DNA of 64,000 bases from assembly GCA_938020525.1 (NCBI GenBank), contig CALIHW010000003.1, forward strand, positions 1 through 64,000. Direction: 5' to 3'. Source of the stretch: an uncultured Granulosicoccaceae bacterium (GTDB lineage: Bacteria; Pseudomonadota; Gammaproteobacteria; Granulosicoccales; Granulosicoccaceae). Position numbers and translations under genes: made by a program. This document shows, piece after piece, positions 4,859 through 55,356 of the stretch. Below the pieces are notes generated by a model. It did not search any database. It saw only the letters and a program-made list of their open reading frames with translations, and was not told the DNA's origin. Position 1 is the stretch's first letter; each line of letters starts with the position of its first letter.

Positions 4859-5713
4859 ATGAAAAAGATTCTGATCACCGGGGCAAGTGGCTATCTTGCA
4901 CAGACACTGATTCCAGTCGCAGCATCACAGGCAGAAGTTACTGGCGTGGCACGAAATACCGAATCGATTAGAGACGAAGCAACTAAAATATCACTTGACA
5001 TAGAGGATCGGACTTCTGTAATTGATGTTGTCAATAGTCTCAAACCTGATGCCATCATCCACTGCGCTGCATGCAACCCGGGTGGCAGTGAAACTGCCAT
5101 GTTTTCCGTCAATGAACACGGTACCGGTAATGTCGCTTTCTCTGCCGCAAAGTCAGGATGCCGTTTTGTTTCCGTTTCATCAGATACTGTATTCAATGGC
5201 AAAGATGCACCATTTGATGATAACGCTCAAGCCTCTCCACTATCGAAAAACCTCTATGCCGTAAGCAAAGCTCGTGGGGAATCAATTGTGAGATCGCTCG
5301 TACCGACAGCTGCTATCGTGCGCACCTCCTTGATTTATGGCACAGACAAAATTGATCGCGGTACAGAAGGCTTCGTCAAACGCCTTGCTGCCGGCGCACC
5401 GTTAAAACTATTCAATGATGTTATCCGACAGCCGGTCAGTAGCCGCGCTTTATCACAAAGCCTGTGCACTCTTGCGTTGAAGCTTGTCGACGAAAGCGGT
5501 TTTATTAATATTATGGGAAATGAAGCTATGAGTAGATACACTTTCGGTGTGCGAATGCTGGACTACTGGGGTATCGACTATAGTGATCAGATTGAATCCA
5601 TCAGTGGTGTTGGCATTGAAGGTTTGCCCATAGATTTGCGGGTAACAATGAACAGAGCCGCACTACTGAAACTTCCTACTCCCGGGTTATCAGAGGTTTT
5701 GCCTGCCTGCTAG
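4859..5713 (+). CDS. RmlD-like NAD(P)-dependent sugar-nucleotide reductase
   Basis: A 284-residue short-chain (extended SDR) protein. The Rossmann motif is ITGASGYLAQTL (about 6-17), and the catalytic YAVSKARGE supplies the Tyr-x-x-x-Lys pair (about 137-145), preceded by SSDTVFNG. The overall pattern is that of the RmlD/dTDP-4-dehydrorhamnose reductase substrate-binding family, but no other rhamnose gene is nearby, so the sugar nucleotide is unknown. The stop codon TAG overlaps the CTAG at the left end of the MITE at 5710-5955; the coding sequence is not disrupted. Confidence 0.82.
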   Translation: MKKILITGASGYLAQTLIPVAASQAEVTGVARNTESIRDEATKISLDIEDRTSVIDVVNSLKPDAIIHCAACNPGGSETAMFSVNEHGTGNVAFSAAKSGCRFVSVSSDTVFNGKDAPFDDNAQASPLSKNLYAVSKARGESIVRSLVPTAAIVRTSLIYGTDKIDRGTEGFVKRLAAGAPLKLFNDVIRQPVSSRALSQSLCTLALKLVDESGFINIMGNEAMSRYTFGVRMLDYWGIDYSDQIESISGVGIEGLPIDLRVTMNRAALLKLPTPGLSEVLPAC

Positions 5714-5955
5714 GCTGCATTATTCATGAGGATTCGCCGTTCAGAGGCAATGTGGCTAAACAGGTCGGCCAATCGTTCGAGAAACGTGGCTTGCCACGTG
5801 CCGAGGGGGATTGGCCGAGATGTGACGCCAGATTTTCTTCTGGCGTCGAATAGACACACTGCTAACTTCGCTGACGGGCCCACAGGAGTGTTTGGAGCTT
5901 TATGTATAGCCTTTCGTTCTATCCTGTTGGTCGCCTCGTAAATAGTGCAGGCTAG
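5710..5955. mobile_element. MITE copy 1 (246 bp, CTAG ends)
   Basis: A non-coding element bounded by CTAG on both sides. The inner ends GCTGCATTATTCATGAG and (reverse complement of the right end) CCTGCACTATTTACGAG form imperfect terminal inverted repeats. The body holds a 10-bp stem TCGGCCAATC / GATTGGCCGA (5765-5774 and 5809-5818) enclosing ACGTGGC-TT-GCCACGT (5784-5799), plus a GACGCCAGA / TCTGGCGTC hairpin. The first 155 bases are nearly identical to the reverse complement of the element at 25320-25565, which is also 246 bp. The CTAG pair can be read as a 4-bp target duplication. No transposase is encoded. Confidence 0.85.
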
Positions 5956-25319: not shown

Positions 25320-25565
25320 CTAGCCTGGATAATTTATCAGGCGACAGGTAAATATTGGCGAAATACTATGTATACAGTTCCAAACCACTTTATTAGCACC
25401 TTTTTCAAAATAGCAGTGTGTCTATTCGACGCCAGAAGAAAATCTGGCGTCACATCTCGGCCGATCCTCCTCGGCACGTGGCGGGCCACGTTTCTCAGAC
25501 GATTGGCCGACCTGTTTAGCCAGATTTCCTCTGGACGCCGAATCCTCATGAATAATCCAGGCTAG
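25320..25565. mobile_element. MITE copy 2 (246 bp, CTAG ends), inverted relative to copy 1
   Basis: CTAGCCTGGATAATTTATC at the left and GAATAATCCAGGCTAG at the right are inverted repeats bounded by CTAG. Reverse-complemented, its first ~155 bases match copy 1 (5710-5955) nearly base for base, including the ACGTGGC-CC-GCCACGT hairpin and the TCGGCCAATC outer stem, which differs at one position. Between the copies the loop changed (TT to CC) while the stem stayed. The remainder is diverged. No coding capacity is credible. Confidence 0.85.
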
Positions 25566-25976: not shown

Positions 25977-28097
25977 ATGACGAATTCTCTCAACCAGTGC
26001 CACGGCCGTTCAGCAACAGTTGGATTTTTACTCCTATGTTCACCGGCTCTGTACGCAAACGGCGCGGGCTACCATCCTGCAACCGCGATACCCAACCTGC
26101 AGGAAATGCTTGAAGAGGCAGCAGGCCTTGCAGCGAGCGAAGAAAATCTTGTACTGCGTCGCAACACACAAGCAGCACCGGTAACCCTTGGCCAACCCGC
26201 GCTTTTTGGCCAATGGTCAGACGTTGTTGACTGGCCAGTCATTGCAGTACATGCGAACCTGCTTCCAAATGGCAAAGTACTGGCCTGGGACGCCACGCCG
26301 GATGACTTTGACGATGATCCTCACACGGCAGAGATATTCACTACCCGTGTCACATTGTGGGATCCAATAACTGGTACGCACAGACAAACCAACAATGACA
26401 CCAACTCGGATCTTTTCTGCGCAGGATCTGCACAAATGTGGGATGGTCGAGTGCTATTCGCAGGTGGCGACAGCGGACGCGCAGGTCTTAATGGCCCACT
26501 GATGAACACCAGTATTTACGACCCTGACACCAACAGCTGGCGGCAGGTAACTAACATGGCAGCTCCCCGGTGGTATTCATCAGTAGCCGCTCTTGGTAAC
26601 GGTGAGTTACTGACCTACGCCGGAACATACTTTCCCGACCCGATTGCAGAAGTATTCCAGCTCGACGAAACATGGCGCTCATTGTCCTCTGTTCCCCTGA
26701 CTGATGGTTTATCCGAATACTATCAGTGGATGCAGACAACACCGGATGGCAGCGTTATGACCTTTGGTCCGCAAAACCGGATTGCGACCATAGAGACCAA
26801 TGGTAACGGTCAGCTTACGGAAGGGCCGTTGCGAGACAGCTTCCCGGAACGTTGGTATGGCAGTTATGCGATGTACGATGTCGGTAAAGTTCTGGTAACC
26901 GGTGGCACAGAAAGAGACGGTGGCGACTTCTCATACGACTCATCCGTCATTATAGATACCGCAACCAGTCAGACCACAGATACCAGCGCGATGATCCACC
27001 CGCGCTCACAACATAACCTGACAATTCTCGCAGATGGGTCTGTACTTGCAACCGGTGGTAATACAGATGGCGAGACGCTGATCAGCTTGGATGCTGGTGT
27101 TTATCAACCCGAGATCTGGTCCCCGGACACAGGTCAGTGGCGGGAAATGAACGATATGCAGATCAACCGTCAATATCACTCAATAGCACTCCTTTTACCT
27201 GACGGACGAGTTCTTTCTGCCGGTGGGGGTTATTGCGGTGATTGCACACAGGTCGGATACCACGAGCAAAACGCAGAAATTTTTTCTCCGCCCTATTTGT
27301 TTGCTACTGGAGATACGCCCGCCGTAAGACCTACAGCCTCTGGCGTACCAGCATCCATCGACTACAGCCAAACATTTGAAGTCTCCAGTGATCAAGCAAC
27401 ACGAATAAATAAAGCACACCTGATTAAGCTCGGTGCTGTTACCCACTCACAGAATCAGGATCAACGCCTGGTACCGTTAACTTTCAGTGAATCTAACGGT
27501 AGTCTGCAATTGCAGACACCCGACAACCGAAACATCGCACCACCAGGTAACTATTTGCTGTTTCTGGTGAATGACGATGGCGTTCCATCTACAGGTCACA
27601 CGATCAAACTCGGCCAGCCACTGCTCACATCCGGCCAGGTAGTGAGCAAGCCTATGGGAAGCAATCAAACTGATGAGTATGTTATCAACGCCGCGGGCGC
27701 TGACAGAAACCTGCTGGTAACGCTCGATACGGCCGATGTGAATGGCTCTCTACAAGTTTCCGGCGTCGATAACAACAATCAAAACACAGCAGCCTGCTCT
27801 GTTTCTATTGTTGCCGGCCAAACGACCGAATGCATGTTAGAAAATGTCGCTGCTACCCGATGGAAAATCCGTTATACCTCACCAGTCGATAGCACCTATA
27901 CCCTGACTGCAAACCTCAGCACCACACCCAATTCAAGCGCTATACCTGCAATCAATACCGGAGCAACCCCTACTGGCAGTGGAGGTGTAGTTACTAACGG
28001 TGGTGGTGGAGCAATATATACAGGTGGCGGCTGGTCTCTGTTGCTGTTAAGCAGTCTGTTGGTATTTACACAGCGACGTAGACGAAACCTTAACTAG
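25977..28097 (+). CDS. Secreted copper radical oxidase (galactose/glyoxal oxidase-like) with GlyGly-CTERM-like tail
   Basis: A 706-residue exported protein. It has an N-terminal signal peptide (hydrophobic core about 14-27), a kelch-repeat propeller (about 75-440) and a DUF1929-type C-terminal domain. The copper-radical site of the galactose/glyoxal oxidase family appears complete: Cys148 in DLFCAGSA, Tyr200 in RWYSS, Tyr400-His401 in NRQYHSIALLLPDG, and His490 in VTHSQNQDQR. Such enzymes oxidise alcohols or aldehydes with O2 and give H2O2. The end GGGWS, a hydrophobic stretch and QRRRR is a GlyGly-CTERM-like sorting signal used by rhombosortase, found on type II secreted proteins. The start at 25977 is preferred over one at 25782 that adds 65 residues without a signal peptide. 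The substrate is unknown. Confidence 0.88.
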   Translation: MTNSLNQCHGRSATVGFLLLCSPALYANGAGYHPATAIPNLQEMLEEAAGLAASEENLVLRRNTQAAPVTLGQPALFGQWSDVVDWPVIAVHANLLPNGKVLAWDATPDDFDDDPHTAEIFTTRVTLWDPITGTHRQTNNDTNSDLFCAGSAQMWDGRVLFAGGDSGRAGLNGPLMNTSIYDPDTNSWRQVTNMAAPRWYSSVAALGNGELLTYAGTYFPDPIAEVFQLDETWRSLSSVPLTDGLSEYYQWMQTTPDGSVMTFGPQNRIATIETNGNGQLTEGPLRDSFPERWYGSYAMYDVGKVLVTGGTERDGGDFSYDSSVIIDTATSQTTDTSAMIHPRSQHNLTILADGSVLATGGNTDGETLISLDAGVYQPEIWSPDTGQWREMNDMQINRQYHSIALLLPDGRVLSAGGGYCGDCTQVGYHEQNAEIFSPPYLFATGDTPAVRPTASGVPASIDYSQTFEVSSDQATRINKAHLIKLGAVTHSQNQDQRLVPLTFSESNGSLQLQTPDNRNIAPPGNYLLFLVNDDGVPSTGHTIKLGQPLLTSGQVVSKPMGSNQTDEYVINAAGADRNLLVTLDTADVNGSLQVSGVDNNNQNTAACSVSIVAGQTTECMLENVAATRWKIRYTSPVDSTYTLTANLSTTPNSSAIPAINTGATPTGSGGVVTNGGGGAIYTGGGWSLLLLSSLLVFTQRRRRNLN

Positions 28098-51357: not shown

Positions 51358-54300
51358 TTATAGATCACTCACTGCAACAACCACTGCAGCATCCTGGGCA
51401 ACTGACACATCAACAGTAGCTGAACTCATCGCACCTGATATATCAACGATTCCGTAATCAAAAGAGTCATCACCGAAAAAACCTGCAGCAGGTGTATAGG
51501 TAAGCACATCTGAGTCATCTACAGTCACTGTGCCATTCGTTGGCTGCAAAACAAAGTCAATCGCCAACACATCACCATCCGGATCTGAATCGTTGGCTAG
51601 TACGTCAATTACTACTGGCTCATCCTGATTAGTCACCGCCATGTCGTTCGCGGCAACCGGTGCTTGATTCGCAACAACCGGTGGCGCTGTCACTGTAATA
51701 CTCACTGCAGCCAGGTCTGTTGCAGCGCCATCACTGATTTCATAGACAAAGCTGTCTGGTCCGCTAAAACCCGCTGCAGGTACATACGTCACCGTGTTAT
51801 CCGCAGCCACAGTGGCAGTTCCATCAGTGGGGTCTGTGTCTATTGCCACCGTCAATACATCACCATCCGGATCAGTATCATTGGTAAGTACGTTTATTAG
51901 TATCGGTTCATCCTGATCAGTAACCGCAGTGTCGTTTGCTGCAACTGGTGCTTGATTAGTAACAACTGGTGGTGCTGTCACTGTAATACTCACTGTGGCC
52001 TGGTCCGTTGCAGTGCCATCACTGATTTCATAGACAAAGCTGTCAGATCCGCTAAAACCCGTTGCAGGTACATACGTCACCGTGTTATCCGCAGCCACAG
52101 TGGCAGTTCCACCGGAAGGGCCAGTATCTATAGTTACCGTCAAAGCATCACCATCTAGATCAGTATCATTGGCAAGCACGTTTATTTGTACCGGCTGATC
52201 CTGATCAACAATCGCAGTGTCGTTCGCGGCAACTGGTGAGCTATTTGTAGATGCAACAGTAATAGAAACAATAGCAGCGTCTGTCCCACCGTTGCCATCA
52301 TCTACCGTGTAGCCGATGCTGTCTGCACCACTAAAGTTTACATCCGACGTATATTGTATACGGTTGTCCGGTAATACGGTGGCGACACCATTAACCGGTG
52401 GAGTGGTCACTGTTACGGTTAAAGGATCACCATCCGTATCCGAATCATTTGCCAGTACGTTAAAGTTAACAACAACCCCCTGGGTTGCTTGAGCACTATC
52501 ATCACCAGCGGACGGCGGATTGTTTACTACCACAGCTGCTACCGTGATAGTTACAGTGGCAGTGTCGGTTCCACCGTTTCCATCTGCAACCGAATAGGTG
52601 AGCACATCAACCCCTGAAAATGTTGCATCCGGTGTATAGGTGATTTCGTTATCAGCCTGCACCGTCGCCGTGCCATCTGATGGAGGCGTGACAATAGATA
52701 CAGTCAAAGTATCACTATCAGGGTCCAAGTCATTGGCAAGCACGGCAATAGTAACCACCCCTCCCTGACTTACCTGAACAGCATCCGCCTGAGCTTGCGG
52801 GGCAACATTGACACTGGCGACACTATTTACTGTCACTGTAACTGTCGCAACAGCTACACCACCGTTTCCATCACTGATTTGATAAGTAAAACTATCGGTG
52901 CCGGAAAAACCAGCATCCGGGCTATAGACAATAACTTCACCTTGCGCGGTAATTGAAGCCGAACCGTTTGAAGGTTGTGTCAACACAGACAATGTCAGCG
53001 AATCACCATCCGGATCGGAGTCATTTTGCAACACCTGCACGCCAACCGGGTCACCCTCTTCAGTAGATCGAGTATCGTCCACTGCAACCGGTGCAGCGTT
53101 GGTATCACTTACCAAAACTGTTACAGCACCTGTATCAGTACCACCATTACCATCGTCTATGACATAACTGAAACCGGCTGTACCGCTAAAGGAGTCTGCC
53201 GGCACGAAGGTCACCGTATTATTAGCATTAATAGTCGCGCTGCCGGAGCGGGTATCCACAACACTTGTTACTGAAAGACTGTCACCATCCGGATCACTAT
53301 CATTGCTCAACACATCAATTACTACCGATGTCTCTTCACTTGTGCTGGCGTTATCATCATTGGCAACCGGTGCAGCGTTGGTGTCACTTACCAAAACTGT
53401 TACAGCACCTGTATCAGTGCCACCGTTACCATCATCTATGACATAACTGAATTCAGCTGTGCCACTGAAAGAGTCCGCCGGCACGAAGGTCACGGTATTA
53501 TCACTGTTTATAGTGGCACTTCCGGAGCGAGCATTGCTAATAGATGCGACAGTAAGATCGTCTCCATCGGGATCCGTGTCATTGCTTAGTACATCAATAA
53601 CTACCGGGTTGTCCTCGTCAGTGCTTGCGTTATCATCATTAGCATTAGGCGCATCGTTAACCGAACTCACATTAACAGTTACCTGATCCGTGGTTTCAAC
53701 TGTGCCATCACTAACGGTATAACTAAATCCATCACTGCCACTGAATCCATCGTTCGGGGTATAGCGGACTTCACCACTCGACAGCAACACCACCACACCG
53801 TTAGAAGCATCACCAACACTGACGATACTTAGTGCATCGCCATCATCATCTGCATCGTTGGCAAGCAAATTAAAAACACCACTGGTATCTTCCGGTACAG
53901 ATATTTGATCTACACCAATAACTGGCGCGACGTTAACAAATACCACGTTCACCACAACAGTAGCAGTTGCGCTATCAGCGCCATCGGTGATTGTGTACTC
54001 AAAGGAATCCGGTCCAAAGAAACCGGCTTCCGGTGTATAACGAACTGTACCACCAGAAATAACAGTGGCAGTTCCACGCAAAGGGCTCGCTACAGATTCC
54101 ACAGATAATGTGTCGCCTTCAGCATCTGAATCATTCGCCAACACCTGCACCACAACTGATGCATTTCTATTGACAGAGATATTGTCGTTAACAGCAACAG
54201 GAGCATCATTCACATTGACAACGTTGATCGTCACGTTTGCATTTACAGTCAGACCACCTGAGTCTTGTACAGTATAAGTAAAGTTGTCCTGACCAATAAA

Positions 54301-55356
54301 ATCCGCCCTAGGACGATATTCAATCAGCGCGCCATTACGAATATTGGCGACACCATTACCAGGACCATTACTTATACTGATTACATTCAGAGGCAGCGCA
54401 TCCGGATCGAAGTCATTATTCAAAACCGCAAGTTCCTGAACACCGGAATCTTCATTTACGGTGAAGCTGTCGTCTACGGCCACAGGGCCGGCATTTTCAC
54501 TATCAACAAAAACTATTTCCACTCTCACAGGGTCACTAACCGGGTTCACACCATCAGTCACCCGGTAGGTGAAGGTGTCTATGCTCAACCCGGAGCTGTC
54601 CTCCGGCGGCAGTTCATTGAAAGCCTCGTAGACAAAACTGCCATCAGCCCCAAATGTTGACCGAAAAGTCGATAGGTTGGAGGCATAGGTCGGTAACTCG
54701 ACTAATTCAGCGCGCAGGCAAGTATTAGTTATGTGCTCATCATCCTCATCGTTGGCAAGCACACCCTGGCTTCCATCAGCTTTAAAACATCGATCATCAT
54801 ATCGAACACCCGTTCTTTCTATTCTGCTTGGATAAGTTAGCTGAAAAGTATCTGGCGCTGTTACCGGGGGTGCATTAAGGCCAACATCGAAACAGAACAC
54901 AGCACGCACGGGCTCGGTAATTGATCCGTCCCGGTCAACCAGACTGACATCATATTCAACACCGATCGGCGCAAATAGCGGCGGTGGAATCACCTCCAGT
55001 GCATCTCCGACCGGCTGAAATGTTACCGAGCAGGATGGCTGGTCGAGCAGACAGGCTGCAACCAGGGAAGTAGCTACGAGTGAGTCATCAGCAAATAACC
55101 CGGCGCACTCAGGCAGACTGCCTTGCCGGACAATGTTATTGCTGACCCGCACTATGCCAGTGTCATCACCGGCAGGAATTCGGATAATCGAACTGTCACC
55201 ACCAAGCACGTCGCCGTCATTGAGCTGCAGGTTCGGCAGGGTGTTGCTATTCCGATCGGCGGAATCATCGTCAGACGCGCCACCACCATTACTGCAGGCA
55301 GCGAGGACGGTGGCCGCCGCCAGCAGGATACCGGCTCTCAACAAAATTAATGACAT
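51358..55356 (-). CDS. Tandem-95 repeat lipoprotein (cadherin/Ig-like repeats)
   Basis: A 1332-residue protein beginning with a lipobox signal (TVLAAC, Cys21) and a Gly/Ser/Asp linker. Twelve repeats of roughly 90 residues follow, each starting with an NxxP-like N-A-P-V-A-x-D-D / N-D-A-P motif and containing DPDGD (or similar acidic turn), S-G-S-x-T, V-x-Y-x-P and F-S-G-x-D-S-F-x-Y-x-x-x-D. These are the tandem-95/cadherin-like repeats of adhesins and surface proteins; the acidic loops likely bind calcium. Two adjacent central repeats (near 53100-53700) are almost identical, as is a pair nearer the C-terminus, pointing to recent duplication. No LPxTG or membrane-spanning tail is visible. Confidence 0.9.
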   Translation of the reverse strand: MSLILLRAGILLAAATVLAACSNGGGASDDDSADRNSNTLPNLQLNDGDVLGGDSSIIRIPAGDDTGIVRVSNNIVRQGSLPECAGLFADDSLVATSLVAACLLDQPSCSVTFQPVGDALEVIPPPLFAPIGVEYDVSLVDRDGSITEPVRAVFCFDVGLNAPPVTAPDTFQLTYPSRIERTGVRYDDRCFKADGSQGVLANDEDDEHITNTCLRAELVELPTYASNLSTFRSTFGADGSFVYEAFNELPPEDSSGLSIDTFTYRVTDGVNPVSDPVRVEIVFVDSENAGPVAVDDSFTVNEDSGVQELAVLNNDFDPDALPLNVISISNGPGNGVANIRNGALIEYRPRADFIGQDNFTYTVQDSGGLTVNANVTINVVNVNDAPVAVNDNISVNRNASVVVQVLANDSDAEGDTLSVESVASPLRGTATVISGGTVRYTPEAGFFGPDSFEYTITDGADSATATVVVNVVFVNVAPVIGVDQISVPEDTSGVFNLLANDADDDGDALSIVSVGDASNGVVVLLSSGEVRYTPNDGFSGSDGFSYTVSDGTVETTDQVTVNVSSVNDAPNANDDNASTDEDNPVVIDVLSNDTDPDGDDLTVASISNARSGSATINSDNTVTFVPADSFSGTAEFSYVIDDGNGGTDTGAVTVLVSDTNAAPVANDDNASTSEETSVVIDVLSNDSDPDGDSLSVTSVVDTRSGSATINANNTVTFVPADSFSGTAGFSYVIDDGNGGTDTGAVTVLVSDTNAAPVAVDDTRSTEEGDPVGVQVLQNDSDPDGDSLTLSVLTQPSNGSASITAQGEVIVYSPDAGFSGTDSFTYQISDGNGGVAVATVTVTVNSVASVNVAPQAQADAVQVSQGGVVTIAVLANDLDPDSDTLTVSIVTPPSDGTATVQADNEITYTPDATFSGVDVLTYSVADGNGGTDTATVTITVAAVVVNNPPSAGDDSAQATQGVVVNFNVLANDSDTDGDPLTVTVTTPPVNGVATVLPDNRIQYTSDVNFSGADSIGYTVDDGNGGTDAAIVSITVASTNSSPVAANDTAIVDQDQPVQINVLANDTDLDGDALTVTIDTGPSGGTATVAADNTVTYVPATGFSGSDSFVYEISDGTATDQATVSITVTAPPVVTNQAPVAANDTAVTDQDEPILINVLTNDTDPDGDVLTVAIDTDPTDGTATVAADNTVTYVPAAGFSGPDSFVYEISDGAATDLAAVSITVTAPPVVANQAPVAANDMAVTNQDEPVVIDVLANDSDPDGDVLAIDFVLQPTNGTVTVDDSDVLTYTPAAGFFGDDSFDYGIVDISGAMSSATVDVSVAQDAAVVVAVSDL

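Follow-up and report, generated by a model that had tools for sequence, protein, structure and literature searches.

Bacterial members of the AA5 copper radical oxidases have been described, among them GlxA of Streptomyces, encoded by a gene linked to cslA, which is cellulose-synthase-like, and FbfB of Stigmatella aurantiaca, a galactose-oxidase-like protein of myxobacterial fruiting-body development (PMC3543389). Pseudarthrobacter siccitolerans has a further bacterial member, a galactose oxidase (PDB 9g43 and 9g8h). Within AA5_2 the residue pair equivalent to Trp290 and Arg330 of galactose oxidase (GalOx) is a key indicator of galactose 6-oxidase activity, and the physiological substrates of AA5 enzymes are unknown in general (PMC11267884); sequence is known to be a poor guide to the substrate scope of AA5. 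The other described systems that matter here are proteins with a GlyGly-CTERM, defined as a tripartite C-terminus of a Gly signature without Cys, a hydrophobic stretch and a basic end (PMC3237569). The serine protease VesB of Vibrio cholerae ends in this way, and its genome holds both a rhombosortase and a type II secretion system (T2SS). Such a tail and its processing are enough for membrane association, and crossing of the outer membrane needs a separate secretion signal (PMC13393428). The named Vibrio cargo of rhombosortase comprises proteases, a DNase and one protein of unknown function, with no copper oxidase among them. A literature search that covered only a minority of subscription journals found no publication on galactose oxidase together with rhombosortase, nor any on galactose oxidase in Granulosicoccus.

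The window analysed here is a stretch of 64,000 nucleotides from an uncultured Granulosicoccaceae bacterium, in which an uninterrupted open reading frame with an ATG start (25977..28097, forward strand, as are all features of the gene given below) encodes 706 amino acids. Pfam, profile and fold matches, together with its catalytic residues, identify the product as an AA5 copper radical oxidase with the galactose-oxidase fold. As predicted for a copper enzyme of this kind, it very probably oxidises alcohols or aldehydes with release of H2O2. A putative Sec signal peptide ending in ALYA (residues 1-27, 25977..26057) was delimited from the sequence and an alignment with the orthologue L048. A lipoprotein signal was considered and rejected because Cys21 is preceded by Leu, with no lipobox, and is lost in the closest orthologue. 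The kelch beta-propeller catalytic domain (residues 76-450, 26202..27326) was assigned by Pfam kelch (Kelch_6, 47.6 bits) and Glyoxal_oxid_N matches together with superposition on 9g43 and 1gof, and is followed by a GO-like_E_set domain (PF09118, 86 bits; residues 451-544, 27327..27608). Residues 551-648 (27627..27920) are modelled as a PPC-type (bacterial pre-peptidase C-terminal) beta-sandwich with conserved Cys607 and Cys619, mostly at a pLDDT of about 90 or above; the Pfam PPC model hits four among 15 orthologues, at best with E 6e-10, and gives no match on the window protein itself. A family profile compared with galactose oxidases returned E values of 1e-90 to 1e-76, the best solved relatives being 9g8h and 9g43 together with fungal galactose oxidases.

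An AlphaFold2 model built with 14 orthologues has a mean pLDDT of 76, a value lowered by the tail and by the first 75 residues; within the domains pLDDT is mostly 70-95. The best fold match is 9g43 (Z 48.8; 2.1 Å over 455 residues), and Z is 46.6 for 1gof, 44.6 for the fungal AA5_2 enzyme CgrAAO (6ryv), 43.6 for GlxA (4unm) and 38.8 for the Fusarium glyoxal oxidase 9n3u. Unrelated propellers (lectins, YncE and others), which share the propeller alone, stay near Z 23. The superposition on the galactose oxidases (Z 46-49) spans residues 64-547 at about 2.1 Å and contains all five catalytic residues; Cys148 and Tyr200 thereby fall where the solved enzymes have their thioether, so that these two residues, on whose proximity a previous sequence-only reading of the gene had staked its case, would be expected to be neighbours in the predicted structure.

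That reading had also named the copper radical oxidase residues, and every position proved right. Cys148 (26418..26420) aligns with the thioether partner Cys228 of GalOx, Tyr200 (26574..26576) with Tyr272, the crosslinked radical tyrosine and copper ligand, Tyr400-His401 (27174..27179) with the axial tyrosine and histidine copper ligands Tyr495-His496, and His490 (27444..27446) with the further copper ligand His581. The residues fall on the motifs DMFC, RGY, YHS and THT-N-DQR of the three references used, namely the bacterial galactose oxidase 9g8h, the Fusarium galactose oxidase variant 8tx5 and the Colletotrichum aryl alcohol oxidase 6ryv. All five are kept in the three references and in 45 of 45 aligned AA5 sequences, the window protein included. 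Because the pattern aligns with solved enzymes and is missing from none of the 45 sequences, it is real and by no means a chance resemblance.

Among the described enzymes, that of P. siccitolerans is the best match in both sequence and fold and has the same Cys, Tyr, Tyr-His and His. It differs in having only 33% identity, in carrying Trp and Arg at GalOx positions 290 and 330 and in belonging to another well-supported clade; moreover, its matched chain stops after the E-set domain, and neither a PPC domain nor a sorting tail is seen there. GlxA is likewise a bacterial AA5 oxidase, but identity is down to 25-26%, the window protein reaches 198 bits with the GlxA equivalog model NF052501, whose cut-off is 800, and the window gene adjoins no counterpart of cslA. 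FbfB was set beside the window oxidase by description, as a galactose-oxidase-like bacterial protein with, in contrast, a developmental role. CgrAAO shares the catalytic set and a Tyr in place of GalOx Trp290, but it is fungal, has other N-terminal domains and retains GalOx Arg330. The argument that copper radical oxidases are mainly fungal, and that a bacterial one is notable for that reason, overstates the novelty because GlxA, FbfB and 9g43 are already established; distant relatives also lie on Streptomyces, Cupriavidus and Burkholderia plasmids.

The substrate pocket departs from that of galactose 6-oxidases. The Trp290 position, a second-sphere site with a role described for related enzymes (PMC11267884), is occupied by Tyr218 (26628..26630), which alignments show to be invariant in the clade, and the Arg330 position by Leu245, with Arg in none of the aligned orthologues. 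Since Tyr218 and Leu245 replace the marker pair, galactose is, as judged from sequence, an unlikely substrate. In CgrAAO, exchange of the corresponding Tyr for Trp lowered aryl alcohol activity and raised galactose activity (PMC11267884). A clade-specific, near-invariant Asp-rich motif, WDATPDDFDDDPHT (residues 104-117, 26286..26327), takes the place of the loop near Phe194 of GalOx; W104, D105, A106, T107, P108, D109, D110, D112, D114, P115, H116 and T117 are invariant in 15 sequences, and the motif is missing from the aligned AA5 references and paralogues. Our best guess from these residues is a primary alcohol or an aldehyde. A glyoxal-oxidase-type (AA5_1-like) enzyme, acting on aldehydes rather than primary alcohols, is a possible alternative, though on balance an unlikely one. 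In its favour, Glyoxal_oxid_N scores above its cut-off on the window protein (40.8 against 37.5 bits) and matches 15 of 15 orthologues, and Trp199 stands directly before the radical Tyr200 where GalOx has Gly. However, GalOx-type enzymes score higher in fold and profile than the glyoxal oxidase 9n3u. In addition, a maximum-likelihood tree assigns the window protein to a 28-member clade (support 100/100) that lies apart from the GalOx-type references, from other AA5 proteins of the same genomes and from a glyoxal-oxidase-annotated Nostoc protein, whose own placement is unsure. The clade does not reveal the substrate, since galactose oxidases and general alcohol oxidases occur here and there across the clades of AA5_2 (PMC11267884).

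The C-terminus of the oxidase reads GGGGAIYTGGGWSLLLLSSLLVFTQRRRRNLN. Residues 675-706 (27999..28094) form a tail with a Gly-rich signature, a hydrophobic run and RRRR, delimited by sequence, family conservation and a predicted helix (residues 690-704 in the model). All three parts of the GlyGly-CTERM definition were found in it, by sequence and by rule scans, and it shares with VesB the Gly-rich signature, hydrophobic stretch and basic end, VesB being a protease and not an oxidase. The NCBIfam model TIGR03501 (GlyGly_CTERM) gave no match on the window protein at E up to 5 or 10 and matched 1 of 15 orthologues weakly (E 0.17). Because the window tail falls below the TIGR03501 cut-off, we call it GlyGly-CTERM-like and not a scored member of the class. 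A tripartite tail is present in 21 of 26 orthologues with closed C-termini as against 5 of 165 unrelated open reading frames of at least 250 amino acids, counted with a looser rule that was set after the tails had been seen and with reading frames from the fetched loci only; under a stricter rule 12 of the 26 pass, the window protein included. The Fisher p of 8e-19 for this enrichment is not to be taken literally, because the rule was loosened afterwards and the orthologues are mutually related. Five of the 26 fail the rule; three of these have a different C-terminal extension, and one has SSGS replacing GG. A tail HMM trained on the tails of seven unrelated proteins of the same genome recovers several orthologue tails (E 8e-7 to 4e-4; best tail-less reading frame E 0.63) and misses that of the window protein. 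The earlier assignment to rhombosortase sorting is thus supported by the tripartite architecture and by the tails of the orthologues, whereas neither TIGR03501 nor the HMM recognises the window tail itself.

Two tail variants were also observed. Three orthologues of one related genus (L035, L037 and L039; 932-1118 amino acids) have another C-terminal extension and no Gly-rich tail, a natural swap of the sorting end. A distant AA5 protein outside the clade (L088 of genome G216; 846 amino acids, 31% identity) carries a similar GlyGly-CTERM-like tail, which suggests an independent gain.

A rhombosortase gene, the presence of which the tail assignment had called for, is encoded in the same genome (TIGR03902, 141 bits against a cut-off of 84) and has both the rhomboid GLSG serine and the VNAH histidine motif. 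In keeping with the proposed tie to type II secretion, GspD and GspE were found above their cut-offs on one contig. Co-occurrence is weak evidence, because 47 of 48 Granulosicoccaceae genomes have a rhombosortase above cut-off. An active oxidase whose tail is a mere anchor or degenerate, so that the enzyme is kept on the periplasmic side of the inner membrane or is shed by another rhomboid, for instance GlpG, appears quite unlikely to us. The failure of both tail models speaks for it, as do other rhomboids in the genome, which score below the rhombosortase cut-off, and the finding that GlpG can cut VesB if rhombosortase is absent (PMC6219818). Against it, close sisters at 72-77% identity keep the GG, hydrophobic and Arg elements although the linker diverges, the rhombosortase and T2SS genes are intact, and the window tail has the tripartite structure.

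We therefore consider it likely that the gene encodes a catalytically competent AA5 oxidase destined for the cell exterior. The sequence, the aligned catalytic residues, the predicted fold, the tails of most orthologues and the rhombosortase and T2SS genes are observed; that the enzyme is active, which class of substrate it uses, how it is cleaved and anchored and what it does for the cell we infer, and the working of the tail is taken by analogy from Vibrio VesB (PMC6219818; PMC13393428). On this route the protein would be exported by Sec through its N-terminal signal, fold, load copper and form the Cys148-Tyr200 thioether by itself, while the C-terminal tail would park it in the inner membrane. 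The genome's rhombosortase would then cut inside the Gly-rich stretch, the new C-terminal Gly would probably receive a lipid-type modification, and the T2SS would export the oxidase, which would be retained at the surface. There it may turn over a primary alcohol or aldehyde (not galactose, by its second-sphere residues) while reducing O2 to H2O2. A kelch protein that lacks catalysis or acts in another way, such as an adhesin or a surface glycan binder with active-site residues kept by descent only, is a very improbable reading: kelch propellers often serve as binding modules, and Tyr218, Leu245 and the Asp-rich loop are unlike the pocket residues of characterised oxidases, but neither the five catalytic residues nor Cys420 and Cys423 vary among the 28 members of the clade, whose identity falls as low as 47%, a constancy that drift would not maintain.

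The relatives of the window oxidase belong to Granulosicoccaceae. AA5 matches occur in 34 of the 48 genomes of this family, each with a best E below 1e-60, and number up to 8 in a single genome, fragments among them; with the family profile at E 1e-60, matches outside the family are limited to 4 of 231 genomes sampled in the class and to 3 of 396 sampled in the phylum. The window organism itself encodes three further AA5 oxidases of 1300-2507 amino acids with lipobox N-termini and intact catalytic residues (L066:2808-6857, L067:609-8132 and L068:4198-8100, on contigs C63, C69 and C120). As one genome holds a tailed oxidase and three lipobox copies, the organism apparently has two ways of displaying copper radical oxidases, by tail and by lipoprotein signal.

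The enzyme and the tail are each known; their pairing, and its abundance in one family of marine-type bacteria, appear to be undescribed. What is new is a well-supported AA5 clade joined to a rhombosortase-type tail, together with the AA5 expansion in Granulosicoccaceae, and it is this surface tail and family-wide expansion, rather than the bacterial origin, that make the locus notable. If the reading is true, the cargo of the rhombosortase/GlyGly-CTERM system extends to copper radical enzymes, and Granulosicoccaceae are a bacterial family rich in such oxidases (34/48 genomes versus 3/396 others in the phylum). Those in search of alcohol oxidases would also profit from a prokaryotic AA5 clade whose pocket is unusual. 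Granulosicoccus, relatives within the family of the window organism, have been reported from kelp, so surface H2O2 could bear on bacterium-alga contact. A more far-reaching proposal is speculative and, taken as a whole, rather unlikely: that the family possesses a surface AA5 system with two anchoring routes and a new pocket marked by WDATPDDFDDDPHT, and that it serves in oxidising or crosslinking the alcohol groups of surface glycans, either algal or the bacterium's own, with H2O2 produced at the cell-host interface.

Genes of housekeeping type (dihydroorotate dehydrogenase, DHH phosphoesterase, HDAC-like deacetylase, RdgC) surround the oxidase gene, which holds the same chromosomal position in a congener, where holA, dihydroorotate dehydrogenase and DHH genes lie upstream. 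Its GC content of 51.4% and GC3 of 48.4%, looked at with regard to recent foreign origin, are near the values of its neighbours. Given these neighbours and a gap of about 2 kb to the next downstream gene (DUF4286-like) in the nearest congener, an operon is not indicated; in the genome context examined, the adjoining genes gave no clue to the substrate or to a use of H2O2. An Rfam search of the window returned no match. Upstream of the gene and outside the enzyme lies one copy of a MITE- or REP-like repeat of about 166 bp (25400..25565, forward strand), which is able to form a hairpin (-63 kcal/mol over 181 nt) and is dispersed over the genome, where 43 matches share 78-98% identity; a second copy lies at 5710-5864 on the reverse strand of the window. 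Further downstream, 51358-55356 (reverse strand) encodes a protein of 1332 amino acids with about 11 Big_9/cadherin-like repeats, which is probably a surface adhesin.
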